DNA of 48,436 bases from a virus. This document shows positions 1-48,436 of the stretch, in pieces. Under the pieces are notes generated by a model, which saw nothing but the letters and a program-made list of their open reading frames with translations, ran no database searches and had not been told where the DNA came from. Made by a program: the position numbers and the translations under genes. Location of the stretch: positions 1 to 48,436 of the IMG/VR virus record IMGVR_UViG_3300009285_003636; one strand, given 5' to 3'. Position 1 is the stretch's first letter, and each line of letters opens with the position of its first letter.

Positions 1-1607
1 ACTCCTGAAGTGGCTGTGTTGCATACAAAGTCTATTGTGTTATCAGCATCTTGATAAGTTATTGCTCCGCCAGTTTCGGTATTTCCAGTCCACATCGCTC
101 CTGCTGTGTCTGAAATGTATTCTGCGAGAGTATCAACTCCTATCCATAAGTTAGTGAAGAAGCCCGTAGTGGCTGTGAGAGTAGTAGAGAAGAAATTGGT
201 TGTTGTAGCTTGAGTTGTTGTGGAGTTGCCAGTGATATTGAGATTGCCTATAAGTGTAGAAGACGCGGTAGCACTAGAGCCGATGATAAAGTTTGTGGTA
301 GTTGCGAATATGCCTGCTGACGGATGAGTGAATGGGTCTGAACCTCCACCTCCCGTATTGAAATCTGTCCCACAAGAGAACACACCATTAGTCCAAAGAA
401 GTTTACCTGTTGTGGTATCACAAGAAGCTAGACCTGCTCCGTGATAGAGAGTTGAAGAAGCATAAGCAGTTGAGAATCCTAGAGTAGTAGAAGCATATTG
501 AGGGAAGATGACTGTGTTAGGAAAAGATAAGACCGCACCAGAAGCCCCGATAACTTTAGGAGAATTGGAGACAGATATTTGATTAGAAGTTCCTGCGAGA
601 GTAGTGGTGGCGACACTTCCGAGAGTAGTCCGACCTGATGTATTAGTGAAGTATGATAATCCTGATACTGCAATATCTGTAGTAGTGGCTATTTCAAAAG
701 CGGAAGTCCCTGCTCCACCGTCATCTGAGCCATCACAGAGTCCTGCACCACCTGTGATAGCGGTGCAGAAATCAGAGAGAGCCGTTCCAACTGTGCCGAA
801 GATTCTAAGTGTCCCTCCACCTATAGCAAGATTGGTGGTGGAAGCGGTCGTGCTAAAGAAGTTGGTCGAGGTGGCAGAGGTGGTGGTACTTCTAGTGATA
901 TTGTTGAAGATATTGGCTCCAGTCCAAGTGTTTGAGGTAGAGAAATCAAAGCCAACCGTGTCTCCCGTAAGAGTAATAGGTGAGGTAACAGCTAAGTTAG
1001 TATCATCTGAAACATCCAGTCCTGCGACATCGGCAGTTCCTACAGTAGCGCAAGTCGCTACACCTAGAACCGAAAGAACGCGAACAAATTGATTAGTGCA
1101 AGTTGTACCTGCGTATTCATCTAAAGAGCCATTGGCATCTGTTAAGAGTAAAGCCGAAGTGAGAGAGGAGACGGCAAAGTTAGTTGTAGTTGCCGAAGTT
1201 GTAGTGGCTCTAGTGGCAAAAGTAGTTGAAGCAACAAGTCCTAAGGGCGTACCTTTTAAGAATAGACCTGTGGAAGTAGCGTTGACTACTTGTCCTCCAT
1301 AAGTATCGGCAGTGAATGGAAATGTACCGCCTGTATCAGACGCGCAGTCCCAGTCATTGGTAGCGGTTTTTTTGAGAATTTCACCATTAGCGCAAGTTGA
1401 ACCGTCTGGCTGAATCTCTCCATCAAAGCGTAAATTAGACGGAGCATAAATACTCCAAGTCGAAACATTTGGTTGTAAAAGAGAAGAAACTAGCTTCCAA
1501 AAATTACCTCCCACCTGCGCGTTAGTTTTTTCAATAAAAAGAAAACCAAACACCCCCAAAAACATCATGCTAATAACAAATAATTTCAGTATTTTTTTAT
1601 GATTCAT
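1..1607 (-). CDS. Signal-peptide-bearing ATTTN-repeat surface/fibre-like protein (partial, 3' end off window)
   Basis: The frame is open from an ATG at 1607 to the window edge, about 535 residues, with no stop seen. The N-terminus has a lysine-rich start, a hydrophobic core (residues about 7-25) and an ALA-type ending before QVGG, so it looks like a signal peptide or membrane anchor. The rest is a Thr/Ser/Ala-rich repeat with motifs such as ATTTNF, STTASTTN and ATSTNFFST, plus a few cysteine pairs. I associate this style with secreted surface proteins of Parcubacteria-like CPR bacteria, and some phage fibres resemble it. The start overlaps the stop of the upstream virion gene by 11 bases. A signal peptide is unexpected for a virion part assembled in the cytoplasm, so it may be a host-surface protein, a conversion factor or a fibre. 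Function is not established. Confidence 0.75.
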   Translation of the reverse strand, partial: MNHKKILKLFVISMMFLGVFGFLFIEKTNAQVGGNFWKLVSSLLQPNVSTWSIYAPSNLRFDGEIQPDGSTCANGEILKKTATNDWDCASDTGGTFPFTADTYGGQVVNATSTGLFLKGTPLGLVASTTFATRATTTSATTTNFAVSSLTSALLLTDANGSLDEYAGTTCTNQFVRVLSVLGVATCATVGTADVAGLDVSDDTNLAVTSPITLTGDTVGFDFSTSNTWTGANIFNNITRSTTTSATSTNFFSTTASTTNLAIGGGTLRIFGTVGTALSDFCTAITGGAGLCDGSDDGGAGTSAFEIATTTDIAVSGLSYFTNTSGRTTLGSVATTTLAGTSNQISVSNSPKVIGASGAVLSFPNTVIFPQYASTTLGFSTAYASSTLYHGAGLASCDTTTGKLLWTNGVFSCGTDFNTGGGGSDPFTHPSAGIFATTTNFIIGSSATASSTLIGNLNITGNSTTTQATTTNFFSTTLTATTGFFTNLWIGVDTLAEYISDTAGAMWTGNTETGGAITYQDADNTIDFVCNTATSG

Positions 1608-2223
1608 ATAAATAAGTTATACCTTCACCATTAACAAGAGCATCAATATATAGAAGGTTAGTATTATTAACATTTAACACTATAGACTGAGTAGCATACA
1701 AATTTATTCCCCTCTGCGTACTATCTACCGCTGACACAACATTAACATCTCCTATAGTAACAACATTTGTATTACTTGCCAATGCCTGAATAGTGACCCT
1801 TTTACAACCAGCCGAAGCTAAACGCTCTCTAGTACCAGCTGTTGTTACAGTGTCAATGACTGTTCCTATAGCAGAAACTACCTCAACAGCCGTTTTAATC
1901 GCAGCAAGATGAGTAATCATAGTTGTCTGATTTGCCGAAATAGCAAGATCTCCAGTAGCAATCGTAGCTGTTATACTACCGGCAATACGCAGAGCTCCAG
2001 TTGAATCAAGACTAAACGGTATATAGTCACCATCAGCCCCAAAATTAGATTGCGTATCCTGTCGAACCCCCAACATCATTATTCCTGAGTCGCCAGAAAC
2101 ATGAATAGAATCCTCTAATTGAGCCAGACCACTAGAACCACTACCTAAAAGAATCTCGATGTTATCAAGACTATCCAGCATATCCTGCAATTGTTTGGGA
2201 TTCCCCGGAAACGGTTCGGGCAT
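1597..2223 (-). CDS. Probable virion protein sharing a C-terminal beta domain with its neighbour
   Basis: A 208-residue protein without a recognised family. Residues 1-60 are helix-prone and acidic (PKQLQDMLDSLDNIEILLG). The middle is Ser/Thr/Ala-rich. The last ~75 residues (from VTIQALASNTNVVTIG to GEGITYLYES) match the pattern of the neighbouring 187-residue protein's C-terminus: VxIQA/VKAKN..N..VTIG/ITVGY..SIxLxVxNxxxxxIDAxVxGEGxxxxYE. This looks like a duplicated beta-sandwich virion domain. It lies in the late cluster after the capsid gene and directly before the repeat surface protein. Likely a capsid or fibre accessory protein, inferred from position only. Confidence 0.7.
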   Translation of the reverse strand: MPEPFPGNPKQLQDMLDSLDNIEILLGSGSSGLAQLEDSIHVSGDSGIMMLGVRQDTQSNFGADGDYIPFSLDSTGALRIAGSITATIATGDLAISANQTTMITHLAAIKTAVEVVSAIGTVIDTVTTAGTRERLASAGCKRVTIQALASNTNVVTIGDVNVVSAVDSTQRGINLYATQSIVLNVNNTNLLYIDALVNGEGITYLYES

Positions 2224-2235: not shown

Positions 2236-2799
2236 TTAGGCTTGTAATTGTTTCTCGTAGATCACTTCTACACCCTCTCCCGTCACTGTGGCATCAAGCC
2301 ATACTCTGTCAATATTCTCAACTTGCAGAGTAATCGATTCATTGTTATCCAAACTGTACCATCCAGTACCAGTATTTAGGGCCGTTGCTGAACTATACCC
2401 TACAGTAATATTTCCGGTATTTGCGTTCTTAGCTTTGACTGTCACAGCCACACCATCGGGAACAGTCTTAGGAGCAGTCAATGTAACAGTAGCCCCAGCC
2501 GCTTCAGTCGTAAGGTCATTTCTTCTAAGAAGAGTAATTGTTCCCGCTACAACAGTATCAATCGTATAAGTTCCGTCATTTGAAGCAGAACCAGCAACGG
2601 TGATTTGATCACCAGCCTGAAATCCGGCAACAACAAAAAGACTGGATGAGTCGGTAATCGTATCAGCAGCTTCCGTATTTTCACTGAAAGCGATTGTCGT
2701 TGCTCGTCGCTTCACTTGGAGTTGCTCAGGCGTACCCGAGGTTTGGACATTAAACTGAAAAGTGAAAGGTAAGGGAAGGTTTGTAAGTCTCGTAGTCAT
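2236..2799 (-). CDS. Probable virion protein (beta-rich, related to next gene)
   Basis: 187 residues, beta-rich and low in charge. The N-terminus (MTTRLTNLPLPFTFQFNVQT) leads into a central segment of the type AFSENTEAADTITDSSSLF..GFQAGDQITVAGSASNDGTYTIDTV. That centre resembles small beta domains found in phage structural proteins. The C-terminal ~75 residues are related to the end of the 208-residue protein downstream. An A-rich leader precedes the ATG and no clear Shine-Dalgarno is seen. Probably a decoration or tail/fibre attachment subunit. The exact role cannot be read from sequence. Confidence 0.7.
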   Translation of the reverse strand: MTTRLTNLPLPFTFQFNVQTSGTPEQLQVKRRATTIAFSENTEAADTITDSSSLFVVAGFQAGDQITVAGSASNDGTYTIDTVVAGTITLLRRNDLTTEAAGATVTLTAPKTVPDGVAVTVKAKNANTGNITVGYSSATALNTGTGWYSLDNNESITLQVENIDRVWLDATVTGEGVEVIYEKQLQA

Positions 2800-2885: not shown

Positions 2886-5800
2886 CTAAGCTACGCGCGT
2901 GAACGCGTACGCAGTCGCGCTGGTGAACATAATTCTGTAGACCGCTACACCCGTTACACCAGATGCTACTGTTAGATCTCCGAACGAACCTCCTGTATCA
3001 ACAGCCGCAGTAGATAATACTCCATTCACTGCCACCGCAATGGTCACAGTGCTGGCTCCCGCCGAGTTGTCGATAACAAGATCAAACACATCTCCCGCCG
3101 AAGCAGACAACTCACCGCCCAACAGAGTTCCCGTTGGCAGAGTTATTGTTGTTGCAGCTGCTGATGTTGATGTAATTCGTCCAGTTGCCACTTCTGCCGC
3201 TGTTGCGGTTGCTGTTGCGTTAATTGCCGCAGCAGTAGAACGAGTGTCTATCGTTGTATTGAGTTCGGTCAATATCGGCAATACTGGTTTGGCAGTAAAT
3301 GTCGCCACGCCAGTTACCAACAAAGTCTCATCAAACACAACCGCACCCGCATCAACCTTAAGTCCTTCCATACCCGAATCGGTTGAGTTGATATACAAGG
3401 CCCACCTACCCGCAGTACTTGCTCCAGTTGCCTCAATAGAGAATAGATTCGAAGTTGAAGAATGATTTCCGTTTGACGTTATATTAACCAAATCTGCACC
3501 AGCAACCAAAGCTCCCGTGTGAGTAATATCCAAGGCACATCCTTCTCCAGAAACTCCAGTTCCTGCCGTAGTCATCTGAATAGCAGATCCCGCAACGTTC
3601 GTTCCCATCCCAATAAACAAGGCATTACCATCAGAAGCACCGGATGAGTAAGTAATATTAATCACATCCGAGTTAAGAACACCCGTTTGTGAAATTAAGA
3701 TCACGTGGTCATTCGTGCCACCATCAGCACCAGTATTCACGATGTTGATAAGTGGTTCTGATCTTGTTCCAGCCGCATCGATCTGAATCGCATTACCAGC
3801 AAGGTTCGTCCCCATATCAATATGGAGCGCGTCACCCGTAGAAGCCGAGGCGTTACCGAACACAATATCGATAATGTTACCGGTGTAGACCGCCGTAACG
3901 TCAATATCGAAGAGTGGACTTGCTGCCGCTCCAGTATTGGTAACGTTAATATCCCACAAGGTTCCACCAATCGTGGTTCCAGCTCCGTCGAATGTTGTTT
4001 CCATCAAGGGCTGTGTTCGTGTTACCGCTCCCGCGTCAAGATGTATCGCAGTAGCAGCCACGCCTGCATTCATATCAATATGAATGACATTACCTGTACA
4101 AGCTGAAGCCAAACCTACTTCAAAAACATTGCCTGCGTACACTCCTGTGGCAAAGTCAATATCAATGAGAGGATTAGAAGTCGCACCTGACTCATTAACA
4201 TCAATATCTATGAGTGTTCCGCCCGCACCCGTGCCAGTTCCTTCCATGATGAACTCAACAACTGGTTGAGTTCTTAGACCTGCGCCCGAGTCAACTCTAA
4301 CAGCTGTCGCAGCTAAACCAGCGTCAAGGTCGATGTTTATCACATTTCCCGTTGCGGCTGCTGACGTAACTATGTCAACGATGTTACCCGTTACAGCTCC
4401 CGTAATATTGATGTCAAGCAGTATACCCGAGGATGTTCCCGCGTCGCCGATTTCAAGAAGAGCAACAGTACGGTTCATTGCACCCGAGGCGATAACAACC
4501 GCCTGCCCGCCAGTTGCCGTCGCACCAAGATTGATGTCCAACACGTTTCCCGTATAGGTTACCGCACCGATACCAACATCAATCGTGTTTCCAGAAGCAG
4601 CTCCATTTTCTGCAATTTCAACAAGATTAGTCGTACGAGTCATCACTCCAGAAGTGAGAACTATTGCTTGAGCACCGGTCGCAGTAGCTCCTAAATCAAT
4701 AGCAATAGCATCACCGGTATCAGCAACAGCTCCATAGGTAATGTCAATAACATTACCAGATCCTGCCCCACCGACATTAATGTCGAAGAGCTGACCAGAG
4801 CCGGTGTTGTTATCCGCGATCTCACAAAGATCAAGGTTCCCGGTTGAGTCGTAAGTAACAGCAATTAAGTTTGCTGTCCGCGCACCCGCGCCGGCATCGA
4901 GGAAGAGGAACCGTCCACCGACCGCAGCGTTCATGTCCACATTAAAGACATCTCCAGTAGACGTTGTATCCATAGAGACCTCAAGAACGTGTCCCGAAAT
5001 TGCGCCAGTAAGAATGACCTCGACCATACTTAGGGTTCCCGTAGAATCTGACTGAAGTTCAATCATCGGCTGAGTGCGGGCACCAGATCCTTCTATATGA
5101 AGAGCGGTCATCGCAACAGCCGTATCAAGGTTAACGAAGAACACATTACCAGTCGCAATTCCCGATGTGGCAAACTGGAAAATGTCTCCGGTGTATGCAC
5201 CAGAAAGATCAATATCAATCATGGCCGCGCTTCCCGTTCCTGCGTCATCAATATCGATGACTGGAGCGGTTCGTACGCCCGTTCCTCCGGTAAAGAGAAA
5301 TCCAGTCGTATTTAGATTATTGCCATTGCCGAGAGTAATGCTTATCGCAGAACCGCCCGGAGATCCGGAAAAAGTCCCGGTAAAGTCCAGACCGATTGAA
5401 GCACCTGACCCGGAACTATTAATGTCGATAATACTGTGTGCACCAGTCGAATCATCCGTAAAGATAAGATCCGAACCCGTGCGTGCCGTACCGCCGGAAT
5501 CAATCTCAATTCCTTCAGCCGCAATACCATCGTCCATATCAATGTAGATAGCTCGAGCTGCAGTATTTGCTGCATCTTCAAACTTCAAAGAAAAGATATG
5601 TCCGCTTCCCGTGCCAGTCTTTGTTGCAGTAAGAGTATTAGCCGTCGCTTGTCCGTCATTAAGAACAATTGCGCCTTCATCCACCGTAATTGTGCTTCCG
5701 TTTTCATAAACACCGTTAAGATCACCAACCGAACCGGAGACAGAAGTTAGAAGGTTATATTCCGTCGTACCATCCCAGAACCGTAACCCGCTCGAACGAC

Positions 5801-5942
5801 GATACAAGAGCATGTCGTTCGTTGAAGTCGGGGTAGTCGTTATATCAGCATCGAATCTAATAGCGCCGAGATCGCTTCCGCGTCTCTGACGTATATTCCA
5901 TCCGCCGATAGAACCTGCCCGACCAGAATCAAATGTAGGCAT
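2886..5942 (-). CDS. Giant tandem-repeat beta protein of the virion (fibre/decoration-like)
   Basis: 1018 residues. Residues 1-75 (GRAGSIGGWNIRQRRGSDLGAIRFDAD..) resemble an anchoring head. Residues about 100-880 are degenerate tandem repeats built from short units such as TGNVIDI, ATGxAIxID, GAxxRTxPLxEI and GGTLIDIDV. These alternate small, hydrophobic and Asp residues, as in beta-solenoid or beta-helical fibres. A final ~110-residue beta domain (ITLPTGTLLGG..SAGDVFDLVIDNSAG..TVTIA) ends the chain and resembles C-terminal domains of head or tail decoration proteins. It follows the capsid gene directly. Long shadow frames on the opposite strand come from the repeat composition. A fibre is more likely than an enzyme; no catalytic motif is visible. 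Confidence 0.7.
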   Translation of the reverse strand: MPTFDSGRAGSIGGWNIRQRRGSDLGAIRFDADITTTPTSTNDMLLYRRSSGLRFWDGTTEYNLLTSVSGSVGDLNGVYENGSTITVDEGAIVLNDGQATANTLTATKTGTGSGHIFSLKFEDAANTAARAIYIDMDDGIAAEGIEIDSGGTARTGSDLIFTDDSTGAHSIIDINSSGSGASIGLDFTGTFSGSPGGSAISITLGNGNNLNTTGFLFTGGTGVRTAPVIDIDDAGTGSAAMIDIDLSGAYTGDIFQFATSGIATGNVFFVNLDTAVAMTALHIEGSGARTQPMIELQSDSTGTLSMVEVILTGAISGHVLEVSMDTTSTGDVFNVDMNAAVGGRFLFLDAGAGARTANLIAVTYDSTGNLDLCEIADNNTGSGQLFDINVGGAGSGNVIDITYGAVADTGDAIAIDLGATATGAQAIVLTSGVMTRTTNLVEIAENGAASGNTIDVGIGAVTYTGNVLDINLGATATGGQAVVIASGAMNRTVALLEIGDAGTSSGILLDINITGAVTGNIVDIVTSAAATGNVINIDLDAGLAATAVRVDSGAGLRTQPVVEFIMEGTGTGAGGTLIDIDVNESGATSNPLIDIDFATGVYAGNVFEVGLASACTGNVIHIDMNAGVAATAIHLDAGAVTRTQPLMETTFDGAGTTIGGTLWDINVTNTGAAASPLFDIDVTAVYTGNIIDIVFGNASASTGDALHIDMGTNLAGNAIQIDAAGTRSEPLINIVNTGADGGTNDHVILISQTGVLNSDVINITYSSGASDGNALFIGMGTNVAGSAIQMTTAGTGVSGEGCALDITHTGALVAGADLVNITSNGNHSSTSNLFSIEATGASTAGRWALYINSTDSGMEGLKVDAGAVVFDETLLVTGVATFTAKPVLPILTELNTTIDTRSTAAAINATATATAAEVATGRITSTSAAATTITLPTGTLLGGELSASAGDVFDLVIDNSAGASTVTIAVAVNGVLSTAAVDTGGSFGDLTVASGVTGVAVYRIMFTSATAYAFTRVA

Positions 5943-6056: not shown

Positions 6057-7037
6057 TCAAACGGAAGTACTTGCCGAACCGATAATCCACTTGTAGTCAA
6101 GAATACCGTAGGCATACGAAGCAGAACTTTTGAATTTCCAATCATCCGTGTCAAATTCCTCTCCATTTCCGCCAACACTCGGGGCGGTAAAGGTTGGATT
6201 CTCAGAGAATTCAAGTATAGCATCCTTATGCTTAAGATCAGCAAGGAACCAGAAGTAACGTCCGGTAGCAGTCGGGGCACCCAAGTTAGTCGTAGCGAGA
6301 AACGGAAGAACAATATGTCGATACTTACCCTTGTAAACGTTATCAGCGCGTTCAGCCGTATCAGGAGCAGAAACAGATCGCATGAACTCCATCACGATGT
6401 TAACAATGGCCGGATCATCACCCGTAATAATCGTATCCGGCTTTGGAACGACTTTGACATCGTTCATATTCACCATGTTTCTGAAGAGACGTTCACCCGC
6501 CTCAAGATTGGTGCGGTTGAAAGCTAGTGTACCGTTTTCGTTGTCAACAACCGTCGAAGAACCCGTAACAGTGTGAGAATCATAGAAAATTGGGTTCGCG
6601 TCTCCCGTGACTGTATTCACCGTTTCACCATCCATGTTTGTGTAAGACGAACCGAAACCGAAAGTGAAGAGATGAGTCAAGTCAAGTTCAATTCTTTGAG
6701 CCGTAGACTCACCAAGTCCACGCATTTTCTTTTCGATCTCGCGATACTTGTCATACTTACGCATTTCCCAAGTAACGGAATCTTTAAGACCAATGCGGGA
6801 CTTTGTGAGATTCAAGGTGTAACCTTGTCGCGGAGAACCAATAACATACGAACCACCTTCGTCTTTTCGACGAGCGAAGCCCGGACTATCGATCTGAGAG
6901 TATTCAGAAGTCTGATTTTCGTTCGGCACTATATCATAGAGCTGCCGAGCGTTTCTTTCTACTGAATCATACTCTTCTCTCCACTGGACCAGCGCATTTT
7001 TTACGAGGTCGTTGAACTGTGAAGTTAGAATAGGCAT
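6057..7037 (-). CDS. Major capsid protein (probable HK97 fold)
   Basis: 326 residues. It lies downstream of scaffold and decoration genes in the order portal, scaffold, decoration, capsid, which is the usual place for the major capsid protein. Visible features are an N-terminal helical arm (QFNDLVKNALVQWREEYDSVERNARQLYDIV), an extended charged loop (SPGFARRKDEGGSYVIGSPRQGYTL), a spine-helix-like stretch (RKYDKYREIEKKMRGLGESTAQRIELDLTH) and a C-terminal beta-rich segment ending in DYKWIIGSASTSV. No separate prohead protease was found. The HK97 fold is inferred from length, order and pattern. The leader is A/T-rich with no strong Shine-Dalgarno. Confidence 0.75.
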   Translation of the reverse strand: MPILTSQFNDLVKNALVQWREEYDSVERNARQLYDIVPNENQTSEYSQIDSPGFARRKDEGGSYVIGSPRQGYTLNLTKSRIGLKDSVTWEMRKYDKYREIEKKMRGLGESTAQRIELDLTHLFTFGFGSSYTNMDGETVNTVTGDANPIFYDSHTVTGSSTVVDNENGTLAFNRTNLEAGERLFRNMVNMNDVKVVPKPDTIITGDDPAIVNIVMEFMRSVSAPDTAERADNVYKGKYRHIVLPFLATTNLGAPTATGRYFWFLADLKHKDAILEFSENPTFTAPSVGGNGEEFDTDDWKFKSSASYAYGILDYKWIIGSASTSV

Positions 7038-9363: not shown

Positions 9364-11415
9364 TTACTGTCCCATCATCTCGACCAATGGATTATTTCCA
9401 TCTGAACCGGTGATGTCACTTTTAATCCCCCCGCGTCCGCCACCTTTTCCTCCCGCCATACCCGTGGCTAATTCTAACCCCTTTTCCTGTGAGAAGTCCA
9501 TAGCCTGCGGCAACTTGTAACGACCCGGATCGTCGCCGTAACCCTTGATCAGATCTTGGAATAATAATTCTTTGTTCTGAGCAAAGTACTCAGGAAACAT
9601 TCTCTGAATAAGTTCAGACTTCTCCACCGTCATGGCCATATTAAGTGCCTGTGACGACTGCCAGAGAGTTTCCGTAATAATCTCTCCATCAAACGAGAAC
9701 CGATCCAGCCAGCCAAAAGGCAGAACTACCTTTTCGTACGGCTGGCCACTTGAAAGGTTTCGTTCTTCTTCTGCCTCAATATCAAGCAAGACCCCTTTCT
9801 TATCAGCCATCTCTTTTTCCGGCCGGAACTCAATACCTAAAGTTCCCTTGGTCCCATCAGAAAGCTCTGTTCGTTCAACATTAAACGAACGGTAACGCTC
9901 TTCAAGTTTCTTCGCACCCTCCTCTCCGGTAATCTCAGCAATCTTCGGCAGAGTATAAGAAAGAAGCACGTTCGGGATTCTCAAACGAATCTTCTGAAGC
10001 CAGAGTGACTCCATGAACATAAAGAATACTCCCTTCAACTGACGGGCCCGCTCATCAGCCGCCACTGCCGCCCGCGCGGTCACATACTTCTGTGCCACTC
10101 CTTGTTGTTGCGGATCAAGAGTAGTAAGATCCAAACCACGAGAAATTAGATCAATCATTTTAACGTCAGAATCAGAAATTCCTTTGATGTCCATCTGCTT
10201 GACCTGAGCAATATCATCAACATAAATCTTCGTATCTCCCGCCACCACTTCATCTTCAAGATCAAGCATATCTTTATTAACCATGCCGATAAGCAAAGGA
10301 GGAACAAACGATCGGTATTGTTTATCAAGCGATGAATTATAAAGAGTATTCAAAACATCACCTTCTCCCATCGCTGAATTCGGCAAAGAATTCCCATAAA
10401 AAAAGTCTGTATTAGCGAACGGTTCATAAATTGTTTTAGCAACTGGATAAGCCGCCCGGCCAAAATTCTTGCGTGTTACATCAATCCACGGCATCGGTCC
10501 ATTATAGAGTTCTACTCCGTTTGCCACGATACGGTACATACCCCGGCGTCCCTTATACTTATTCATGTAACAAGAAACCAAATACCCTTTCCCTTTTTCG
10601 ACACCCTCCGACCATAATTTATGGAAATAAGTATCATGTTCATCTACTTTAATATCACCGCAATTCTTTACAAGCTTAGCATTCGGATACTTTCCAAAAT
10701 TCGCCTCAAAACGTTCCTTATCGGGATAAAACTTCTCAAGACAAATAGCCGGCTGTTCCTGAATATCTCTAATATAAAAATTCTTAATCAAACATTTCAT
10801 AAGCGAAACCTCATAACTGACCGGTTCACCATATGACTCTTTCTCCATAATCTCTTCCTCAATATCACCCGTCACCAGATCAAAACTTTTGATTCTTGTC
10901 TTTTCATAGGTCTGTTTTTCATATCCTTCATAAGAAAGCACCGTACCCTTCCCAACATTTGACCAAGCAAGAAAGAAGAGATCTTCCTGCGGATTACCTT
11001 GATTATAAGAATGCCTGACAAGGTTCATGGCAATCTCAGCTGCAAAGTGATCAAAACGATCTTGGAAATTAACCGCCTTAATACGAATGCCCGGGATATC
11101 TCGAGCCGTCGCTGCCAATAAAGCTTTCGCTTTATTTGCATACGCACGCGTCGCAAAATTTGCCTGCCACTCTTCTTTACCTTGCGATGCTTTATCTAAA
11201 ACATAAGCGTTCAATCTTTTTTCAGAATCATCTATAAATTCCTTAAGAGTACGATCATTAAACTGGACATACGATTGGTCACGAAGCGTAACCATCTCAG
11301 CGCGCTGTTCATAAACAAATTTTATTCTTTCCTTTTGCGGTTCGCTAGGATTCCAAACTGCAGTACTTTCCTTTTTTTCTTCTGAAGTATTATATTGTGT
11401 TGTTTCTTCAGGCAT
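9364..11415 (-). CDS. Portal protein (podovirus/P22-like size class)
   Basis: 683 residues. The portal forms the dodecameric ring at one head vertex through which the terminase pumps DNA. Supporting signs are the position after the large terminase, an N-terminal helical region (NAYVLDKASQGKEEWQANFATRAYANKAKALLA), the portal-type phrase YEPFANTDFFYGNSLPN around residue 335, and a helix-rich stem region near residues 455-490 (QKYVTARAAVAADERARQLKG). A Gly-rich C-terminal segment (MAGGKGGGRGGIKSD) ends the chain. Length and phrasing fit large portals of short-tailed phages better than ~450-residue siphophage portals. The start overlaps the upstream gene's stop by 8 bases. Confidence 0.8.
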   Translation of the reverse strand: MPEETTQYNTSEEKKESTAVWNPSEPQKERIKFVYEQRAEMVTLRDQSYVQFNDRTLKEFIDDSEKRLNAYVLDKASQGKEEWQANFATRAYANKAKALLAATARDIPGIRIKAVNFQDRFDHFAAEIAMNLVRHSYNQGNPQEDLFFLAWSNVGKGTVLSYEGYEKQTYEKTRIKSFDLVTGDIEEEIMEKESYGEPVSYEVSLMKCLIKNFYIRDIQEQPAICLEKFYPDKERFEANFGKYPNAKLVKNCGDIKVDEHDTYFHKLWSEGVEKGKGYLVSCYMNKYKGRRGMYRIVANGVELYNGPMPWIDVTRKNFGRAAYPVAKTIYEPFANTDFFYGNSLPNSAMGEGDVLNTLYNSSLDKQYRSFVPPLLIGMVNKDMLDLEDEVVAGDTKIYVDDIAQVKQMDIKGISDSDVKMIDLISRGLDLTTLDPQQQGVAQKYVTARAAVAADERARQLKGVFFMFMESLWLQKIRLRIPNVLLSYTLPKIAEITGEEGAKKLEERYRSFNVERTELSDGTKGTLGIEFRPEKEMADKKGVLLDIEAEEERNLSSGQPYEKVVLPFGWLDRFSFDGEIITETLWQSSQALNMAMTVEKSELIQRMFPEYFAQNKELLFQDLIKGYGDDPGRYKLPQAMDFSQEKGLELATGMAGGKGGGRGGIKSDITGSDGNNPLVEMMGQ

Positions 11416-12270: not shown

Positions 12271-13830
12271 TTAGTATCCCCCCATTCTCACCTTAAGTCC
12301 ACGTCCCTGAACTCGCTTCCTCTTCTTAGCCTCCCGCCTCCGCTTCAGTTCCTCAAGATCCGCGTGTTCCTTCCTCACAAACGTGAGAACCCCGGCATCG
12401 GCAACATCAGGGCTATCAATCCCAACCGCCCTCATGTCATCCTTACTCATCACCCTCAAACGCCCCTTACTATCCGGTTTATATTTAACAGTACAAAGCT
12501 GAAACCAGTGATCATCTCGCGAAAGCCGTCCCCCCTTCTTGATCCACTCCCTCAAACGCCAATAGGCCTCCGCCCGCAAGTTCGCAAACCGGCTCATGTC
12601 AAGTGCTGACGAACTCATCGAAACTCCTCGCACCCTCTTGTTCTGAGCCAGTAAAGGATCAACCGCGCCTCCGCCCACACCCACATCATCTATAAAAACG
12701 TTCTCATCAATAACACTGTTCTCCCCCATAAAGAAAAGCGTCCGGCTGGCAATCTCCGTCAAATTATCCTGCTTGCTTATTCCTAAAATATTCATGTAGT
12801 TCATACTGCGCAATATCCAAACTGTATCATTCTCACCCCCGCGCGCCACATCGTTGCCAATCCTTTTCTCCCCGACATGTTTAATCTCCTCTCCCTCTTT
12901 TTGCATCGCTCTCTCAACATCGTCTTCCGACAAGAGCTGAGTCCAGCCGTGAACATCAATGTCCGTATCCGAAGGAAATTTATTGTCGTAAAGCACCCCG
13001 AAGTAGGGCTTCTCCCTCATCTCGTTAATAAACTCCTGCGTCAAACGGCCCTCCTTCAGTCCTACCTTGTAGTCCGCATTAATTTTAAAATAGGCCTCGT
13101 CACCATACGCTTTAAGAAAATGCCCCCGCGTGAACGGGTTTCCCACTTTAACCACGAAGTCCATCCCCTGCGCAGTAAAGCCGCCCACCATCCTCATCGC
13201 CTTCGCGTCCGCCTCGTCCCCGATGAGAGCCGCCTCATCCATGACCACGTTCGGCGCGCCGAATCCCATAAGAGCATTACCGACATCTTCTCCCTTCTTC
13301 AATCTCGACTCCCCAGAAAGAATAAAGACCTCGCCAATTTTTCCATCCCCAAGATCAAACGTTAACCTACTCTTCGAACGTTCGCGCCTGATAAAGTCCG
13401 CGCTCTCCCCCGGCTCCATCTTAAACCTCGCTTCCGTATACTCATTTTCGAAAATGTGTCTAATTAAATATCCCATGATGATTTTAGCCTTCGGTTGCGA
13501 TGGAGCGATCAGGGCCCACTTCTCTGAGAACGTCGCCACCCTCGTCAAGACCGCCATCGAAACCACATCCGATTTTCCGAACTGCGTATGTGTCATGACA
13601 TGGAGACGCTTCTTCCCCACGTTCGTCCCCTTCATAAAGATCGCATCAAAAATCAGGTTCTGCGTCGGCGTCATCTCAAACGCAGTATTGTACTCAGTCT
13701 TATACAAACTCTTCACCAGCTCCTTAGTAGTAGTGGCCGACAACCATTCCGCCGCCGTCCCAGCAACAGGAGTTTCCCCTACTGGCGGCAGATCCTCGTT
13801 CAAAATTTCCTCCAGTGCATTTCTAGCCAT
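12271..13830 (-). CDS. terL: Terminase large subunit (packaging ATPase/nuclease)
   Basis: 519 residues. It powers DNA translocation into the prohead and cuts the concatemer. The ATPase part has a Walker A-type loop THTQFGKS at residues 80-87 and a Walker B VVMDEAAL near residue 195. The nuclease part shows acidic clusters at [26 protein letters not shown] and the late DSPDVADAG. These fit the RNase H-like fold of TerL. Length is normal for the family. The start overlaps the stop of a tiny upstream gene by 8 bases. The C-terminus is a basic tail ([24 protein letters not shown]). Confidence 0.9.
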
Positions 13831-25598: not shown

Positions 25599-25763
25599 TT
25601 ATTTCGGTTCTCCGTTATTATTAAACTTCACTCCTTGAAGCATCATTTCAATATAAGAAATCATTACTAATGCTCTACCACGTTCTTTACATTCACCCTT
25701 TGGAAATTCTCCATCAAGAATGTCTACCATAGTGTTCCAATACTTTGATCGTTTTTTGGTCAT
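25599..25763 (-). CDS. Small unknown protein
   Basis: 54 residues: MTKKRSKYWNTMVDILDGEF, then PKGECKERGRALVMISYIEMMLQGV. Helical with one Cys. It starts one base after the CHC2 gene stop and ends just before the HerA-like start, so it fills the gap exactly as expected for a real cistron. Function unknown. Confidence 0.5.
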   Translation of the reverse strand: MTKKRSKYWNTMVDILDGEFPKGECKERGRALVMISYIEMMLQGVKFNNNGEPK

Positions 25764-25764
25764 C

Positions 25765-26412
25765 TTATTTATTGATTAGCAACTTTACCGCTTGTAAAAA
25801 ATTACACTTACTCGATTGCATGATGTACTCGATCACGTCTCCGCCAGCATTACAGCCGTAACAATAGAAGGTGTTTTGCTTGATATAGATCATGAAGCTT
25901 CCTGTTTTCTCTATATGGAACGGGCATTGTCCTGTTGCTCGACTGCCTTGTCGGTTCAATTTCCCGACATAAAGACTTTCAATCGGCACTTCTTTAGCTC
26001 TAGCGATGTCAGTGTCAGTAATTTTACTCGGATCCACCTCGCTCGCTTTCTTCGGCTTCAGCGCCGACAGATAGAACCGGCTCTGTTTAATCTTATTTTC
26101 TCTACCGGCCCGGAGGGGCTCTATATAAAAAACATTAAGAACAGATAGCCAAAATTCTTGAGAGCGCAGATCATTTGTTTTGTTAAAGATAATTTTTTTA
26201 CCTTCGTTTTCTACCCGGACTGATTCGTTAAGGTCAGCTTTATATTTTTTTATGTTTGTGAGGAGACCGCGTCTCATAGCCGGTCTAGCTTCAGGGAATA
26301 TTTCAAGGAGCTGGTAGAAAGTGTAGTTTGGTAAGCTTTCTTGATGATTTTTCTCGAGTTTTGTCAGATACCCTTCCCTTTCTTCATTTTGTATGTTAAG
26401 CAAGTTATCCAC
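25765..26412 (-). CDS. CHC2 primase zinc-finger protein without TOPRIM domain
   Basis: 215 residues from a GTG start. The C-terminal part (residues about 133-212) matches the DnaG N-terminal module: a helix (DIARAKEVPIESLYVGKL), then zinc ligands C163, H166, C184 and C187 in GQCPFHIEKTGSF and FYCYGCNAGGDVIEYI. The ~130 residues before it are helical and unknown. The TOPRIM polymerase domain of DnaG is missing. It may recruit a host primase, bind template DNA or represent a split primase. The start codon lies inside a DnaA-box sequence (26405-26413). Confidence 0.75.
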   Translation of the reverse strand: MDNLLNIQNEEREGYLTKLEKNHQESLPNYTFYQLLEIFPEARPAMRRGLLTNIKKYKADLNESVRVENEGKKIIFNKTNDLRSQEFWLSVLNVFYIEPLRAGRENKIKQSRFYLSALKPKKASEVDPSKITDTDIARAKEVPIESLYVGKLNRQGSRATGQCPFHIEKTGSFMIYIKQNTFYCYGCNAGGDVIEYIMQSSKCNFLQAVKLLINK

Positions 26413-26413
26413 A
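26405..26413 (+). promoter_or_regulatory. Perfect DnaA box
   Basis: TTATCCACA matches the DnaA consensus. It overlaps the GTG start of the CHC2 gene, in the divergent space before the rightward HTH gene. It could be chance or a regulatory site for host DnaA. Confidence 0.4.
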
Positions 26414-26441
26414 GGTTTGATGTTTTTAGTGCAAGTACCAG

Positions 26442-26470
26442 TTGCGTTCCGATAGTATATCCTTTATACT
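26442..26470 (+). promoter_or_regulatory. Promoter of the rightward middle operon (leaderless-like)
   Basis: TTGCGT (26442-26447), a 17-base spacer and TATACT (26465-26470) form a good sigma70-type promoter. The ATG of the HTH gene is at 26477, the normal +1 distance, so the transcript would start at the start codon with no leader. Confidence 0.55.
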
Positions 26471-26476
26471 GTAAAC

Positions 26477-26686
26477 ATGCCAATAGATATTGTTGGGGAT
26501 AAGGTGGAAGAGTTTTTAACAGATAAACGCAATGAGCTTATCTGGGCTCTTTTTAAACAAGACTATACTCCGTCACAAATTGGCAAGATATTCAATATGA
26601 AGCATATCTCAACAGTTATGCGTATTATTGGAAGGTGTCCGCCTCGATGGGTTCCTAAGTGGGTGAAAAAAGTTTATACGAAGTGA
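26477..26686 (+). CDS. Helix-turn-helix DNA-binding protein
   Basis: 69 residues. LFKQDYTPSQIGKIFNMKHISTVMRIIGRCPP is a helix-turn-helix of the type used to read DNA major grooves: helix, turn at IFNMKH, recognition helix STVMRII. The start ATG sits at the predicted transcription start. As first gene of the rightward middle operon it is a good candidate regulator. The Trp/Lys-rich tail is short. Confidence 0.6.
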   Translation: MPIDIVGDKVEEFLTDKRNELIWALFKQDYTPSQIGKIFNMKHISTVMRIIGRCPPRWVPKWVKKVYTK

Positions 26687-26699
26687 ATGCTGATCTTAC

Positions 26700-26906
26700 A
26701 TGAACACACAAAAAGATAAGCAGGTAGAAGAAAAAAATCGAGGGATCAAGGTTAATCCGATGCAAGTGGGGTGTCTTGTTCCTGAGCTTGAGCATGAGTG
26801 GCGAGTTGTGCCTCAATTCTATAAGGAGGTCAACAGTGTTCAGAGAAAGTATTGTGTCTATTGTATTCACTGTCTTCAAACGACAGTAATAGAGGTAACG
26901 TTATAA
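26700..26906 (+). CDS. Small Cys-containing protein
   Basis: 68 residues. A charged start (MNTQKDKQVEEKNRGIKVN) is followed by LVPELEHEWRVVPQFYKEVNSVQRKYCVYCIHCLQTTVIEV. YCVYCIHC gives two overlapping CxxC pairs, perhaps half a zinc site completed by dimerisation. No family recognised. Same operon as the HTH and SSB-like genes. Confidence 0.5.
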   Translation: MNTQKDKQVEEKNRGIKVNPMQVGCLVPELEHEWRVVPQFYKEVNSVQRKYCVYCIHCLQTTVIEVTL

Positions 26907-26921
26907 ATTAAAATTATTACC

Positions 26922-27374
26922 ATGCCAGATATATTTGATGATTCAAACTTCGATGAGTCAAGTGAGATGTCTTCACTAACTATCGATTGGGGGAAGGTTG
27001 GAAATTTCGTGATAGGTACATTCGTGAAAGCGCGTCATAACGTTGAAACGCAGTTCGGGTTAAACAGTATTTATGAGTTCTATACAGAGAAGGGCTCGTT
27101 TCATAAGCTCACTAAGAAAAAGCCGGCGGAAACGCCTACGGCAATCAATAAAGGTGAGTCGTGGAATGTCTGGGGACGTAATGACATCTTCAATGGTCAA
27201 ATGAATAGTCTCCGTCCGGGTCAGGTAGTCAAGCTTACTTTTACCGAAGAGGTAGAAGGTAAACTCGGACCAGCAAAAATTATCAAGATCTACGCTCCGA
27301 AGGATAACGAGGGTAAACCGACTATGAACAAGGAATGGCTTGATAGTCAGAGCGTAACGGGCGGGGACTTTTAA
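26922..27374 (+). CDS. Probable phage single-stranded-DNA-binding protein
   Basis: 150 residues with an acidic N-terminus (MPDIFDDSNFDESSEMSS) and a beta-rich body. GNFVIGTFVKARHNVETQFGLNSIYEFYTEKGSFHKL and ESWNVWGRNDIFNGQMNSLRPGQVVKLTFTEEVEGKLGPAKIIKIYAP have the pattern of an OB-fold (strands, Gly-rich turns, aromatic residues). Phage SSB-like proteins of this size commonly precede a RecB-like nuclease, as here. The acidic tail, usually C-terminal in SSBs, would be N-terminal. The name rests on pattern and context, not a clear signature. Confidence 0.55.
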   Translation: MPDIFDDSNFDESSEMSSLTIDWGKVGNFVIGTFVKARHNVETQFGLNSIYEFYTEKGSFHKLTKKKPAETPTAINKGESWNVWGRNDIFNGQMNSLRPGQVVKLTFTEEVEGKLGPAKIIKIYAPKDNEGKPTMNKEWLDSQSVTGGDF

Positions 27375-27379
27375 AAGTT

Positions 27380-27478
27380 ATGTTCAACTACAAAATCGTA
27401 AAGAAAAAGGAATGGAACATAATGTTAACTGTTCTTGATGATCAATTAAAAAGTATTAATAATCTACTAAGAAAATGA
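27380..27478 (+). CDS. Tiny protein coupled to the nuclease gene
   Basis: 32 residues, MFNYKIVKKKEWNIMLTVLD then DQLKSINNLLRK: a basic strand plus amphipathic helix. The stop overlaps the nuclease start (ATGA) and only five bases separate it from the SSB-like gene. May serve mainly for translational coupling. Confidence 0.4.
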   Translation: MFNYKIVKKKEWNIMLTVLDDQLKSINNLLRK

Positions 27479-28284
27479 AAATCCTTAAGCATTACAGAGT
27501 AGAGCTTGCCGATACGTTGACCGGACACTGGTATAACGTCTGGGAACAAGGCAAGAAGAAAGAGAAATTTCTCGGCACTTTTCCGTCCTCGACTACTATT
27601 CTCAATGCTTATCCGCAGTCTCCGCATCTTACTCAGTGGATTGCAGAGCAGGGCTGGCATGAGTCTCAGAGAATTAAGTCAAAAGCAGGAGAGCGAGGAA
27701 CGAGGATCCACACCGCTTGCGACAAGCTTGAGGACGGTGATACTCTCGTAAAAGAGGATTATTCTCTCGAAGAGTGGTTCAAGATTAACTCGTTTGTTGT
27801 CTGGTACAAAGATACACAACCGAAACTCGTCGCTAAGGAGTTTCCAGTATTCTCTAAGAAGGGTGGATATGCTGGCCGGCTCGATCGCATTTATGAGATT
27901 GCTAGTCAGAACGTACTTCTTGACCTTAAGAGTGGCTCCGGTATCCACGAACATTTCCCTCTTCAATTTGCTTCATATGCTAAAGCTGTTGAGGAGAATA
28001 CTGATCTGAAGATCGACATCACGGCTGCTCTTCAGCTCGGGGCGAAAAATAAGAACGGCTACCGTTATGTGCTTTACCCTGAGTGGAAAGAGCATTACAA
28101 GGTGTTTGAGAGTGTGCGCGCTGTCTGGCAGTACGACTATTTCGATAGTAAGAAGAACGCTAAGGAAGCGCCGGTGTTAGTATTACCAGCTAGTTTATCT
28201 CTTAATGAGCCAGAAAAAAAAGTTGAAGAAGTTACACCGCAAAAAAATGCGACTGGAAAGAGCAAAGAGAAAAAAGTAAAATAA
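27475..28284 (+). CDS. RecB/Cas4-like PD-(D/E)XK nuclease
   Basis: 269 residues. The RecB-type motifs are in order: GERGTRIHTACD with H79, GGYAGRLDRIYEI with D137, NVLLDLKSG with D150-x-K152, and FPLQFASYAKAVEE with the Q164-x-x-S-Y helix. This is the arrangement of phage exonucleases that process ends for recombination or packaging. The C-terminal ~45 residues are a charged, disordered tail (LNEPEKKVEEVTPQ..SKEKKVK). It follows the SSB-like gene, forming a recombination pair. Confidence 0.8.
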   Translation: MKILKHYRVELADTLTGHWYNVWEQGKKKEKFLGTFPSSTTILNAYPQSPHLTQWIAEQGWHESQRIKSKAGERGTRIHTACDKLEDGDTLVKEDYSLEEWFKINSFVVWYKDTQPKLVAKEFPVFSKKGGYAGRLDRIYEIASQNVLLDLKSGSGIHEHFPLQFASYAKAVEENTDLKIDITAALQLGAKNKNGYRYVLYPEWKEHYKVFESVRAVWQYDYFDSKKNAKEAPVLVLPASLSLNEPEKKVEEVTPQKNATGKSKEKKVK

Positions 28285-28289
28285 ATATT

Positions 28290-28988: not shown

Positions 28989-29051
28989 GCAGATGGATTT
29001 TGAGATCGACAAGGTCCGAAAAGTCTTTATTAGAATTAATTAAATAATAAT

Positions 29052-29210
29052 ATGCCAAGTTATAAAGTCCTCGTGGAGTTTGAGCTCGATGGTGCTGTAC
29101 AAGTAGTCGACTCAGTAGTAGAGCTTTCAGAAGAAGTGGCACAGCCGCTCGTTAACGAAGGTAAGCTCGAAGCAGTAGCTACGGGTGGAGGCGGAGGAGG
29201 TGCTGCTTAG
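29052..29210 (+). CDS. Small acidic Gly-tailed protein
   Basis: 52 residues: MPSYKVLVEFELDGAVQVVDS, VVELSEEVAQPLVNEGKLEAV and a Gly/Ala tail. The fold pattern (strand, strand, short helix, strand) resembles small phage proteins with the phrase VELxEExAxxLVxxGxxE. Role unknown. It is followed by 152 bases with a weak CAATGG/CCATTG hairpin but no gene. Confidence 0.5.
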   Translation: MPSYKVLVEFELDGAVQVVDSVVELSEEVAQPLVNEGKLEAVATGGGGGGAA

Positions 29211-29362
29211 TAGTCCTCTCTTTTGGGGATTATCATAGGGGGCGTGTCAATGGTTTGGAAAGGGCACTTCATATTGTCCTCCCAACGTAAGTAAACTTTG
29301 GCCATTGTTCTCCCTCTGATGATCCTCAAGGTGGGCGGATTATTAAATTAAGTTTTGAGAAA

Positions 29363-30751: not shown

Positions 30752-30785
30752 GAGAGGGGAAATTATAAGTAATCTTCAAAGATTA

Positions 30786-31670: not shown

Positions 31671-31675
31671 AAAGG

Positions 31676-32109: not shown

Positions 32110-32113
32110 AATA

Positions 32114-32807: not shown

Positions 32808-32851
32808 GACAAAAATTATTATTATTAATAACTAGTTAAATTGTATCACAC

Positions 32852-32874: not shown

Positions 32875-32882
32875 ATTTGGGC

Positions 32883-32918: not shown

Positions 32919-32970
32919 TAAAGAACGTGGGGAGGAACACTAGCAGTTACTAACGGAATCGTTCCAATGG

Positions 32971-43759: not shown

Positions 43760-45214
43760 TTATTCACTATACGGCTCTCTTCTGATGCCCGAACGATAAT
43801 TAATTTCGTTTATTTTAGGAGCCATTTTGTATTTTTGTCCGGAGACTTCCGTTCGAATTGCAGACTTTAAAGTATCACCGAAAAGCTTAAAATCTCCGTC
43901 ATCCAGATCTTCCTTACCATTATTGCGCCAGTAATTCTTTCCTTGCCAAAGTAACCAGTACCGAACCATATCAAAACGCGGGGCATCAATAGTGTCCGCT
44001 TCCGAATCAACCGCCGTGGCCTCTTCATTGTAGTCCATCGTGACGTTCTTATTTATCCAAGTAGAATCTACCAACGGCCAAATACGGATGCGACCACTTC
44101 TGACGTTAAAATATCTCGGCTGACCTTCCTGTTCATCCTGCCAGACGTTCTGATCAACAACGTGGGCTGCGCCAATAGCTCCAGCACCAGATGCCGGGAC
44201 GCCGGTCAGAATCCCCGCAGTTGCCGAACGTGTTACTCCAGTATAAGTAATAGCGTCAAGAGTATTTGAACTGTAAACGTTTACAGTCCCCGAGTCGTCA
44301 AAGTCATAAGAATTGTCAATCTCAAGAGTCGTTCCACCCACCACCGCAAGTGTACGCACTTGCGTATGTTTAGCGTCATTCATCGCAGCCTCAAATTCTT
44401 TTTCATCAAGCGGTTTTAAAGGTCTGTCCAGACCGCCAATCTTTACTTGAAGAACCGACTTATTTGTTTCATCATCATAAATATCCGCAGGAAGTGCAAA
44501 ATCAAAGACTCCTCGAGCCGTTTGCCCGATCACATAATCCGCAATTAAGTAACGACTCCAGCGCTTAAGTTTTCCTTGAACGTAGCGCAGACACGCATTG
44601 ATCTCATCCATCGCTACCTGTTTTGAGAACGTTTCGTTCCATTCCTGACCAAGCTTGCGACGCACAGATTCAAGCACATAACCGACTTCGTCTTCGGCAA
44701 AAGTGACTTCTACTTGTCCCCACGGAATAGCGTCCGAATAAAGCAAGTTGACGGAATTAATACTGTCAATAAATCGCCAATAGTAAAATCCTGATGTCTG
44801 TGTCGTGTCATCGTAAAAGTTTCGAACAAGGGTCGGATCGATGTTCTGAGCCGCCGCCAGCGCCGTCAACGTAGAATCATCTGAATTAGCGTTTACTTCT
44901 GTAGCGGAACTATAGAATCGGACTGTATTCGCTCTAATGATGTAGATCACCGTACCAGCCGGATGAGGCTCCACAAGACCCGCCGCTACCAACGTCACGG
45001 TATTGCCTGACGGCGCCGTAGAGGCAGAGGTGACGACAATCTCAGCCGACTCGTTGCCGGGGAAACGAAAAAACAAAATATTGTCAATAGCCGCACCGGT
45101 AATACTTTTTACAGTAATAGACGTAGCGCCAGCGGCAACGTCAGCGTCGAGAATAAGCGTTTCTGCTCCATCGAGGAGTTCACTTATGTCAGAGTATATG
45201 CGGCGAACTGGCAT
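43760..45214 (-). CDS. Head-tail adaptor-like protein with N-terminal Ig-like extension
   Basis: 484 residues. The first ~120 form a beta domain (AGATSITVKSITGAAIDNILFFRFPGNESAEIVVTSAS). From about 170 a helical connector body starts (VGYVLESVRRKLGQEWNETFSKQVAMDEINACLRYVQGKLKRWSRYLIADYVI), then FALPADIYDDETNKSVLQVKIGG and GRIRIWPLVDSTWINKNVTMDYNEEA, phrases typical of gp11/gp4-type adaptors or tail tubular A proteins (LPADxxR, IxxxPxxxxx..xYxxxP). It likely sits between portal and nozzle. Confidence 0.6.
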   Translation of the reverse strand: MPVRRIYSDISELLDGAETLILDADVAAGATSITVKSITGAAIDNILFFRFPGNESAEIVVTSASTAPSGNTVTLVAAGLVEPHPAGTVIYIIRANTVRFYSSATEVNANSDDSTLTALAAAQNIDPTLVRNFYDDTTQTSGFYYWRFIDSINSVNLLYSDAIPWGQVEVTFAEDEVGYVLESVRRKLGQEWNETFSKQVAMDEINACLRYVQGKLKRWSRYLIADYVIGQTARGVFDFALPADIYDDETNKSVLQVKIGGLDRPLKPLDEKEFEAAMNDAKHTQVRTLAVVGGTTLEIDNSYDFDDSGTVNVYSSNTLDAITYTGVTRSATAGILTGVPASGAGAIGAAHVVDQNVWQDEQEGQPRYFNVRSGRIRIWPLVDSTWINKNVTMDYNEEATAVDSEADTIDAPRFDMVRYWLLWQGKNYWRNNGKEDLDDGDFKLFGDTLKSAIRTEVSGQKYKMAPKINEINYRSGIRREPYSE

Positions 45215-47073: not shown

Positions 47074-47252
47074 CCTTTTCCTTGATTAGTTTCGTGAGGT
47101 ATCTGATATTCTGGCGAGAAGTTTTGCTCTATCTTCGGCAAGATTGGTTCGTTTGCAAAGAATTTATAAATTACAAAGGCGAGCGAGAAAGCGATTGTTC
47201 CTAGAATTATTATCGTAGCTGTTCCTAAATAAATGGTTCGGAGATTTTTCAT
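47070..47252 (-). CDS. Small single-span membrane protein
   Basis: 60 residues from the ATG at 47252, chosen because it overlaps the upstream stop (ATGA); a longer start at 47303 adds 17 unsupported residues inside the LamG gene. The span is TIYLGTATIIILGTIAFSLAFVIYKFF, with an acidic/polar tail (EQNFSPEYQIPHETNQGKG). Second member of the coupled string after the LamG-like gene. Confidence 0.5.
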   Translation of the reverse strand: MKNLRTIYLGTATIIILGTIAFSLAFVIYKFFANEPILPKIEQNFSPEYQIPHETNQGKG

Positions 47253-48436
47253 GGAATTATTAAACGACCGTTGAGGATGAATAAGCCATCGTTTATTAGA
47301 CACATTGGAGAACTTGTAACATTTTGTGAAGTAATGCCGTCCACATATTCGACCACAGCTACAAGGGTTGAAACATCAATATCATTAGCACTCAAAGAAG
47401 CTACCCCGATTTGCATATTATCTATAGAATTTGTACCTGTAGGAGTCCAAGCTATACCTGTTGTCGGGTCTATGTAAGAAACAAGCTTTTTTCTAAAAGC
47501 AGTGGAAGAAACTGGATTGGTTTGCCAAGTAGTGCCACCAACATCCGTACTAGTTGTTGTTGCAAGAGTTCCACCGGAAGCAGATTTGATTCGTAGTTGA
47601 TAAAGTGTTGCTGCAGCCGATTCTTCCCTAATTCTAACCCGAATTTCTACAAGTGAAATTGTATCTGAAGAATTTATACCAACCTGACTAGTCGAAGAAG
47701 CATTAAAGTCTGCAATTGTTGTTGCCGCGTCTAAATCAATAAACGAAGTAGCATTATCTGGTGGGAGTTCGTCTATCAAATTAAAAGTACCAAGAGTAGG
47801 AGCATTGTCACCCGCTGCACTTGGTAGAATATGAACTATTTTTCCTGTTCCAGGCCAAGAGTTCTGGACAGAACCACCCGCACCATTTATTGCGACATCA
47901 TCAATATACATATACATCGTTGGTATGTCTATATGAGTTCCAATCTGCATGCTTGTAATTGAACCCGTAACAACATTTGTACCACTAGCAAAACTTGTCC
48001 CATCTAATTGTGCTTCTAAAGGTAAACCATTGGTTGTCCCATCGTCTTGGCATTTGAGCTCAACTTGGTACCATGTATTTAGAGACAAAGTAGCAGAATC
48101 AGAACCAACCTGCGCCGTATCACCCTTATGGAGTTCTAGAGTTAGATTTGCTGCATCAAAATCAATCAAACAAATAGCAGTTCCACCTGATGTTCTAAAA
48201 ACCATTATTGTAGTATCGGTTGATGGAAAGGTGGAAAATCTAAAGTAGACCCGTGCATATTGAATACTTGAAGTTGCCACTGTATAGTTAAAGGATAGAT
48301 TTTGGTTACTCACTGCAGGGTCAAACACGATTGATGAGGAACCACTACGAGTCGTTGTGCCTATGTTAAAACCAGCATCTATTACTGTAAAATCGACATT
48401 TGTCGTTATTGTTCCCCATTCAAATCCAGTAGTGTA
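47249..48436 (-). CDS. LamG/concanavalin-like protein (partial, 5' end off window)
   Basis: The frame is open to the right edge; 395 residues are seen. The internal GTG at 48328 is not a proven start. SSSIVFDPAVSNQNLSFNYT and YARVYFRFSTFPSTDTTIMVFRTSGG, then LELHKGDTAQVGSDSATLSLNTWYQVELKCQDDG and MYIDDVAINGAGG, are the LamG/jelly-roll lectin pattern. A second beta domain follows (SLVEIRVRIREESAAATLYQLRIKSASGG). It likely binds glycans, as part of a fibre or baseplate. It stands just upstream of small membrane genes, coupled by ATGA. Confidence 0.7.
   Translation of the reverse strand, partial: YTTGFEWGTITTNVDFTVIDAGFNIGTTTRSGSSSIVFDPAVSNQNLSFNYTVATSSIQYARVYFRFSTFPSTDTTIMVFRTSGGTAICLIDFDAANLTLELHKGDTAQVGSDSATLSLNTWYQVELKCQDDGTTNGLPLEAQLDGTSFASGTNVVTGSITSMQIGTHIDIPTMYMYIDDVAINGAGGSVQNSWPGTGKIVHILPSAAGDNAPTLGTFNLIDELPPDNATSFIDLDAATTIADFNASSTSQVGINSSDTISLVEIRVRIREESAAATLYQLRIKSASGGTLATTTSTDVGGTTWQTNPVSSTAFRKKLVSYIDPTTGIAWTPTGTNSIDNMQIGVASLSANDIDVSTLVAVVEYVDGITSQNVTSSPMCLINDGLFILNGRLIIP

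Follow-up and report, generated by a model that had tools for sequence, protein, structure and literature searches.

The window analysed here, a 48,436-b IMG/VR virus record, carries a minus-strand operon at its left end that runs from the terminase through the major capsid protein, a 1018-aa repeat protein, P0003 and P0002 to P0001, which is cut by the window edge (Table 1). The preliminary description had placed P0001 among structural genes, and its position in a late operon with terminase, capsid and head genes agrees with this. The ATG of P0001 overlaps the end of P0002 by 11 b, which shows that the gene is packed into the operon; its frame is still open where it runs off the contig edge. 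No Pfam or PHROG match was obtained for P0001. The product of 9364-11415 may be the portal, judging from its size and place. The 1018-aa protein behind the capsid gene (2886-5942, minus strand) consists of many short degenerate repeats, and in relatives the gene at its place has a similar start and a length of 168 to 1100 aa.

Table 1. Features of the window discussed in the text, with coordinates in the window.
Feature	Position	Strand	Basis or remark
P0001, signal-peptide repeat fibre, 535 aa	3..1607	-	ATG start; 3' end beyond window
Phage tail-fibre motif, P0001 residues 496-530	18..122	-	60-74% in fibres of L002, L003, L004
Host-like block, P0001 residues 209-302, ATSTNF repeat	702..983	-	58% over 94 aa, E 8.2e-19, G016:C62
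Host-like block, P0001 residues 73-173	1089..1391	-	60% over 101 aa, E 1.8e-27, G898:C21
Predicted signal peptide, P0001 residues 1-30, predicted cleavage TNA↓Q	1518..1607	-	sequence; strict rule
P0002, upstream gene without signal peptide	1597..2223	-	overlaps P0001 start; phage relatives L021-L027
P0003, head protein	2236..2799	-	phrog_1236, E 2e-7
Major capsid protein	6057..7037	-	PF25209, E 6.8e-7; 16 viral relatives
Terminase large subunit	12271..13830	-	phrog_2, E 1.7e-18
Conserved virion-module gene, marker of right end following left	43760..45214	-	69% in L018, 68% in L009
P0005/P0008, lectin-like virion-type protein	47249..48436	-	phrog_14065, E 7.9e-42; 5' end open in window

The leader of P0001

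The N-terminus of P0001 reads MNHKKILKLFVISMMFLGVFGFLFIEKTNA↓QVGG. A basic n-region (MNHKKILK) is followed by approximately 17 hydrophobic residues, and the leader ends in FLFIEKTNA↓Q, in which TNA↓Q is predicted to be a textbook signal peptidase I site. The 19-residue hydropathy mean is 2.36 in the leader against a maximum of 1.64 beyond residue 40. P0001 passes a strict rule of our own (a hydrophobic core plus an A-x-A site), which is also passed by 257 of 50,000 shuffled versions of its N-terminal 60 residues, by 0 of 430 internal windows and by 5 of 286 ORFs from the window and the 16 capsid relatives, although it misses 4 of 12 leaders chosen by eye. The five ORFs are P0001, the fibre of L011, two proteins behind the L019 capsid and a 294-aa protein with a clear signal peptide that is encoded outside the late operon (30786-31670, plus strand). 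A looser rule is weak alone: 8.4% of the shuffles pass it, as do 12 of the 430 internal windows. By our own rule, n-region, hydrophobic core and signal peptidase I site, the features of a Sec-type signal, are all present, and what had been described as a clear export signal is indeed, by sequence, a canonical signal peptide.

An uncleaved hydrophobic N-terminus has to be weighed against this, since our rules cannot separate anchors from signals and such a segment on a fibre gene could be a docking helix; P0001 would then be a virion fibre anchored in the tail or in a membrane. Against it, a small residue occupies -1 and -3 just after the core in P0001, in several other fibres and in P0008, and the sequence often continues with Q; this makes an anchor improbable, as does the exact end of the P0008 leader described below. 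Reading of P0001 revealed neither a lipobox nor a wall sorting signal (the cleavage site has no cysteine), and no wall or membrane anchor and no second membrane segment were seen. The cleavage site, together with the lack of a lipobox or second membrane segment, thus disfavours the earlier suggestion that the N-terminus anchors the protein in a membrane.

Host-like repeats and phage-type ends

P0001 contains ATTTNF/ATSTNF repeats at residues 139, 245, 435 and 467. The pattern [AS]T[TS]TN[FLI] accordingly occurs four times, a number reached by 0 of 20,000 shuffles (never more than two copies), and it is found in no other window ORF of at least 100 aa. Among genome contigs a repeat pattern matches 21 loci, in ten of which the motif lies in a frame of 233-2666 aa with 1-23 repeats; nine of these ten are titled Patescibacteria, Parcubacteria or Zambryskibacteria and one is an untitled bacterium, while the other 11 loci comprise three Paenibacillus frames (265-313 aa, one copy each) and short frames. 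The five loci in viral contigs include only one, L087, in a long repeat frame. The host-like character that had been ascribed to the ATTTN repeats is upheld by the occurrence of the motif in long host proteins.

Alignment by tblastn extends this likeness beyond the motif. Residues 96-173 are 70.5% identical over 78 aa to a Patescibacteria protein, and further host matches are 53% over 92 aa, 88.6% over 35 aa and weaker pieces of 34-51%, so that the best pieces against Patescibacteria proteins have 53-88% identity over 35-92 aa. Matches to P0001 were obtained in 5 of 11 motif-selected genomes, in 2 of 379 genomes of a phylum sample (E<=1e-6) and in 8 of 397 genomes of an order sample (E<=1e-5), both samples including G016, which was itself chosen by motif. 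The search of CPR genomes that had been proposed for the repeat domain thus returns matches in Patescibacteria; with the low rates in the samples, the host match is real but sparse. A search of the phylum of a Pseudomonas genome gave 0 of 150, in a sample that had no known positive and shows nothing by itself. For the 72-aa linker, 173 pattern matches in genome contigs yielded 0 confirmed cases.

The large signal-bearing repeat proteins of Patescibacteria compared with P0001 have either an HTH-like start and repeats or a signal peptide and SYQGRL/INYQGKL. Several host repeat genes code for large products whose N-terminus is HTH-like, and HTH_17 was detected at E 6.1e-5, below the Pfam cut-off, in one of two host proteins scanned. 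In the large Patescibacteria proteins of L075 3-2546, L076 888-6305 and L078 2-8386 the HTH-like start gives way to TTT-rich repeats; proteins of this type lie, in three genomes, near a gene that we take to be gatB-like. No phage genes were seen beside host repeat genes in the stretches read. The large signal-bearing Patescibacteria proteins resemble P0001 in combining the ATTTN motif with linker blocks and some cysteines. P0001 differs from the Patescibacteria repeat proteins in its place in a phage operon and in lacking their N-terminal domains, neither the HTH-like nor the SYQGRL/INYQGKL domain being recognizable by reading.

A short phage-type motif lies near the visible end of P0001. Residues 496-530 are 57% identical to a leaderless protein, the tail fiber of Pelagibacter phage HTVC033P; this weak 35-aa match to the motif was the only one for P0001 by tblastn against 50,697 phage records, in which P0007 and P0015 had no match. 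The fibre proteins of L002, L003 and L004 begin with a leader by the loose rule, and right behind the leader of L004 and L002 is what we take to be an apparently ordinary tail-fibre N-terminal motif. P0001 shares its position and this one short motif with ordinary phage tail fibres and differs from them in its signal peptide and spaced cysteine pairs.

The missing 3' end can probably be assigned from a second contig. L028 is part of a contig of 26,260 b. Each of the ten window proteins with a homologue in L028 is matched there at 100% identity, and L028 reaches 556 b past the right edge of the window. It contains the end of a frame, 160 aa with TTT/ATST repeats; this frame end finishes in ...GKLQFDGYNTDGSRICMYVVTTTLTIQSGACNQ, with the C-terminus ...SGACNQ and no hydrophobic tail. 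In both L018 and L009 the capsid gene, the P0003 homologue and the homologue of 43760-45214 occur in one stretch in the same order, which indicates that the left end of the window very probably leads to its right end. The 160-aa frame end is thus probably the C-terminus of P0001, an assignment made across a missing stretch between the left edge and L028; an exact search of the viral contigs found none that bridges the left edge. An HNH endonuclease gene lies inside the virion module at 45468-45992 (minus strand; phrog_1271, E 1e-11).

The last approximately 65 aa of the L028 frame are common to a 691-aa fibre of L029 and a 1164-aa fibre of L087. In hosts this segment (alignment A2) has a single weak match, at 4.6e-4 in one of the 379 genomes sampled from the phylum, and none in the 347 from the order; of the 10 phage records searched it matches three, those from which the alignment was built. 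A longer C-terminal alignment, A5, matches 7 of 15 host genomes, most of which were chosen for carrying repeats, and does so only to position 139 of 157. The preliminary description had suggested capture from the host. The repeat region does appear host-like in origin, whereas capture of the whole gene is not consistent with a mosaic that includes a phage tail-fibre motif. A simple captured host gene was accordingly rejected, given host-like blocks joined to that motif and, probably, to a phage-fibre C-terminus.

Leaders on P0008 and on fibres of other phages

The lectin-like neighbour P0008 has its own predicted signal peptide. Its true start lies past the right edge and was read in L028 (485-1744), where it is MKKLIILLVLIAFGIPSPIYA↓ERMYTTGFEW. 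The AlphaFold model (mean pLDDT 72.5) matches ConA/LamG-type domains as well as phage proteins, one of which is named as a virion structural protein. In sequence, P0008 resembles phrog_14065, or the 'minor tail protein' of Streptomyces phages such as Hiyaa and Galactica, with 31-32% identity over 76-92% of P0008 across five Streptomyces phage records. The Galactica protein starts MARIWTCGFEM and has no leader, in contrast to P0008. When 32 viral loci with the P0008 domain were sorted by eye, 20 had a bare start ([MVL][AS]R...), three (the window virus, L029 and L113) had a hydrophobic leader, which ends in A, and nine were internal or unclear; the loose rule had flagged a leader on L093 that we judged false and had missed that of L113, which was read by eye. 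The P0008 leader ends exactly where the leaderless homologues begin. Leaders are kept between P0008 homologues that are 40% identical, which points to selection. The leader of L113 (609-2093) is joined before the P0008 domain on a GC-rich (59.9%) phage contig, and the leader theme may therefore extend beyond Patescibacteria phages.

Signal-peptide-like leaders, counted by the looser rule, also occur on late genes of other phages. Of the 17 late genes of at least 100 aa in the phage of L029, 11 have them, including 691-aa and 1767-aa repeat fibres and every fibre candidate visible. Eight consecutive late genes of this phage (L029 3420-14880; G006 25703-37163) all have signal-peptide-like or membrane leaders; the same phage encodes what is by eye a GroEL-type chaperonin (L081; G006 3844-5553), and an HNH gene may interrupt its capsid gene. 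The phage of L087 has leaders on 4 of 15 late genes, including the 1164-aa repeat fibre, and a phage in a Patescibacteria genome bin (G557:C17) on 2 of 12, including a 773-aa fibre. G557:C17 was the only capsid-alignment match among 297 genomes of the order searched, and if the binning is right it ties the capsid family to Patescibacteria. Among the close capsid relatives L005-L010 and L018, 1 of 44 late genes was flagged, weakly and on a head protein, and the position of P0001 is held by fibres without a signal peptide.

P0001 is thus not a lone oddity, as P0008 and the fibres of several other phages also carry predicted signal peptides. This recurrence on distinct phages bears on the possibility that the leader is incidental, either as a segment recently gained from a host by a gene that is decaying or neutral, or as a start-codon artefact. 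The host-like blocks do show exchange with hosts, and GAAGG lies 14 b before the ATG of P0001, a long spacing; against this, leaders recur, have been retained on divergent P0008 homologues, and the P0001 frame is open over its 535 aa. We regard an incidental leader as very unlikely.

The cysteines of P0001 are also unusual. It has nine, compared with 0-4 in each of the other 19 window proteins counted, and they include the pairs 72/88, 170/186, 281/291 and 396/412 with spacings of 16, 16, 10 and 16 (four pairs versus 1.3 expected, P 0.003). An excess of pairs is likewise present in L087 (P 0.002) and in the 1767-aa (P 5e-5) and 691-aa (P 1.5e-4) fibres of L029; pairing in the G557 fibre is not significant (P 0.074), and the signal-peptide fibre of L011 has one cysteine. 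Signal-peptide-like proteins of at least 200 aa are richer in cysteine (18 versus 92 non-independent proteins, P 0.03). The pairs do not prove export, because they could have come with the host blocks or could close after lysis.

A proposed exported fibre-adhesin

The signal-tagged P0001 is real, recurrent and unusual; its function we infer from sequence, together with export, processing, disulphides, host phylum and a surface role. The cleavable leader, the paired cysteines and the host surface blocks make export and action outside the membrane the simplest reading. With a probability of roughly 45%, we propose that P0001 is a Sec-exported, host-mimicking mosaic fibre-adhesin of a Patescibacteria tailed phage that acts most likely at the surface of the infected cell. 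P0001 would be made late, from the virion operon, by a tailed phage infecting Patescibacteria; its cleavable Sec signal peptide would send it across the host membrane, signal peptidase would take off residues 1-30, and the paired cysteines would close in the oxidising outside. The host-like repeat stalk and the phage-type ends would then function extracellularly, most likely at the infected-cell surface. There P0001, as an adhesin or a mimic of a receptor, may block superinfection or alter cell-cell attachment, acting together with the exported lectin-like P0008. Display by the infected host is plausible, although retention at the surface is unexplained given that no wall or membrane anchor was seen.

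Its virion-fibre motif and fibre position mean that P0001 fits a virion role no less well than a surface role. A receptor-binding fibre matured via Sec, which would be exported, cleaved and oxidised and would join virions at lysis, is somewhat unlikely. P0001 occupies the place of a fibre, and apart from a weak stretch (30% identity over 83 aa, E 0.003) neither the window nor L028 has a homologue of the leaderless fibres of L005, L008, L009, L010 and L018; a leaderless fibre may still exist, however, since part of the fibre module is missing. The tail-fibre motif of P0001, the presumed tail-fibre N-terminal motif behind the L004 and L002 leaders and the leaders on all visible fibre candidates of the L029 phage are each consistent with a virion fibre, but exported fibres would be diluted before lysis, and we know of no tailed phage that assembles its fibres via Sec export. 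In a broader and rather unlikely version, a set of Patescibacteria phages would pass its whole fibre and adsorption module through the host Sec system, the host-block fibres being oxidised outside and then arming the epibiont surface or joining virions; fibre maturation outside the cytoplasm via Sec is, to our knowledge, not a known route for tailed phages.

For the fibre-adhesin that we favour, the nearest known case would be PblB of streptococcal prophages. Pneumococcal PblB is described (PMC4508584) as a repeat-containing protein with a predicted signal peptide and an end of galactose-binding-like type, and PblB/PblA as phage-encoded bacterial-surface adhesins with tail-type homology; on that account an adhesin can be a phage protein of tail type that bears a predicted signal peptide, and the likeness to P0001 is one of analogy only. 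PblB of S. mitis is reported to reach cells after phage-induced permeabilisation, whereas the route suggested for P0001 is its predicted signal peptide. The P0001 phage further differs from the PblB case in that its repeats are Patescibacteria-like and several leader-bearing genes are adjacent. Judged by titles and abstracts, we found no report of signal peptides on Patescibacteria phage fibres in the literature.

Patescibacteria are regarded as living in attachment to other bacteria, and whether and how their phages influence this symbiosis is described as unknown (PMC13059738). If the proposal is true, an exported host-block fibre with an exported lectin-like P0008 would be a direct handle on attachment, superinfection or transfer between cells. 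The comparison of P0008 with and without its added leader offers a clean test of the redirection of virion-type proteins outside the cell. As the arrangement recurs in other viruses, export of fibres from the infected cell may be a feature of some phages.
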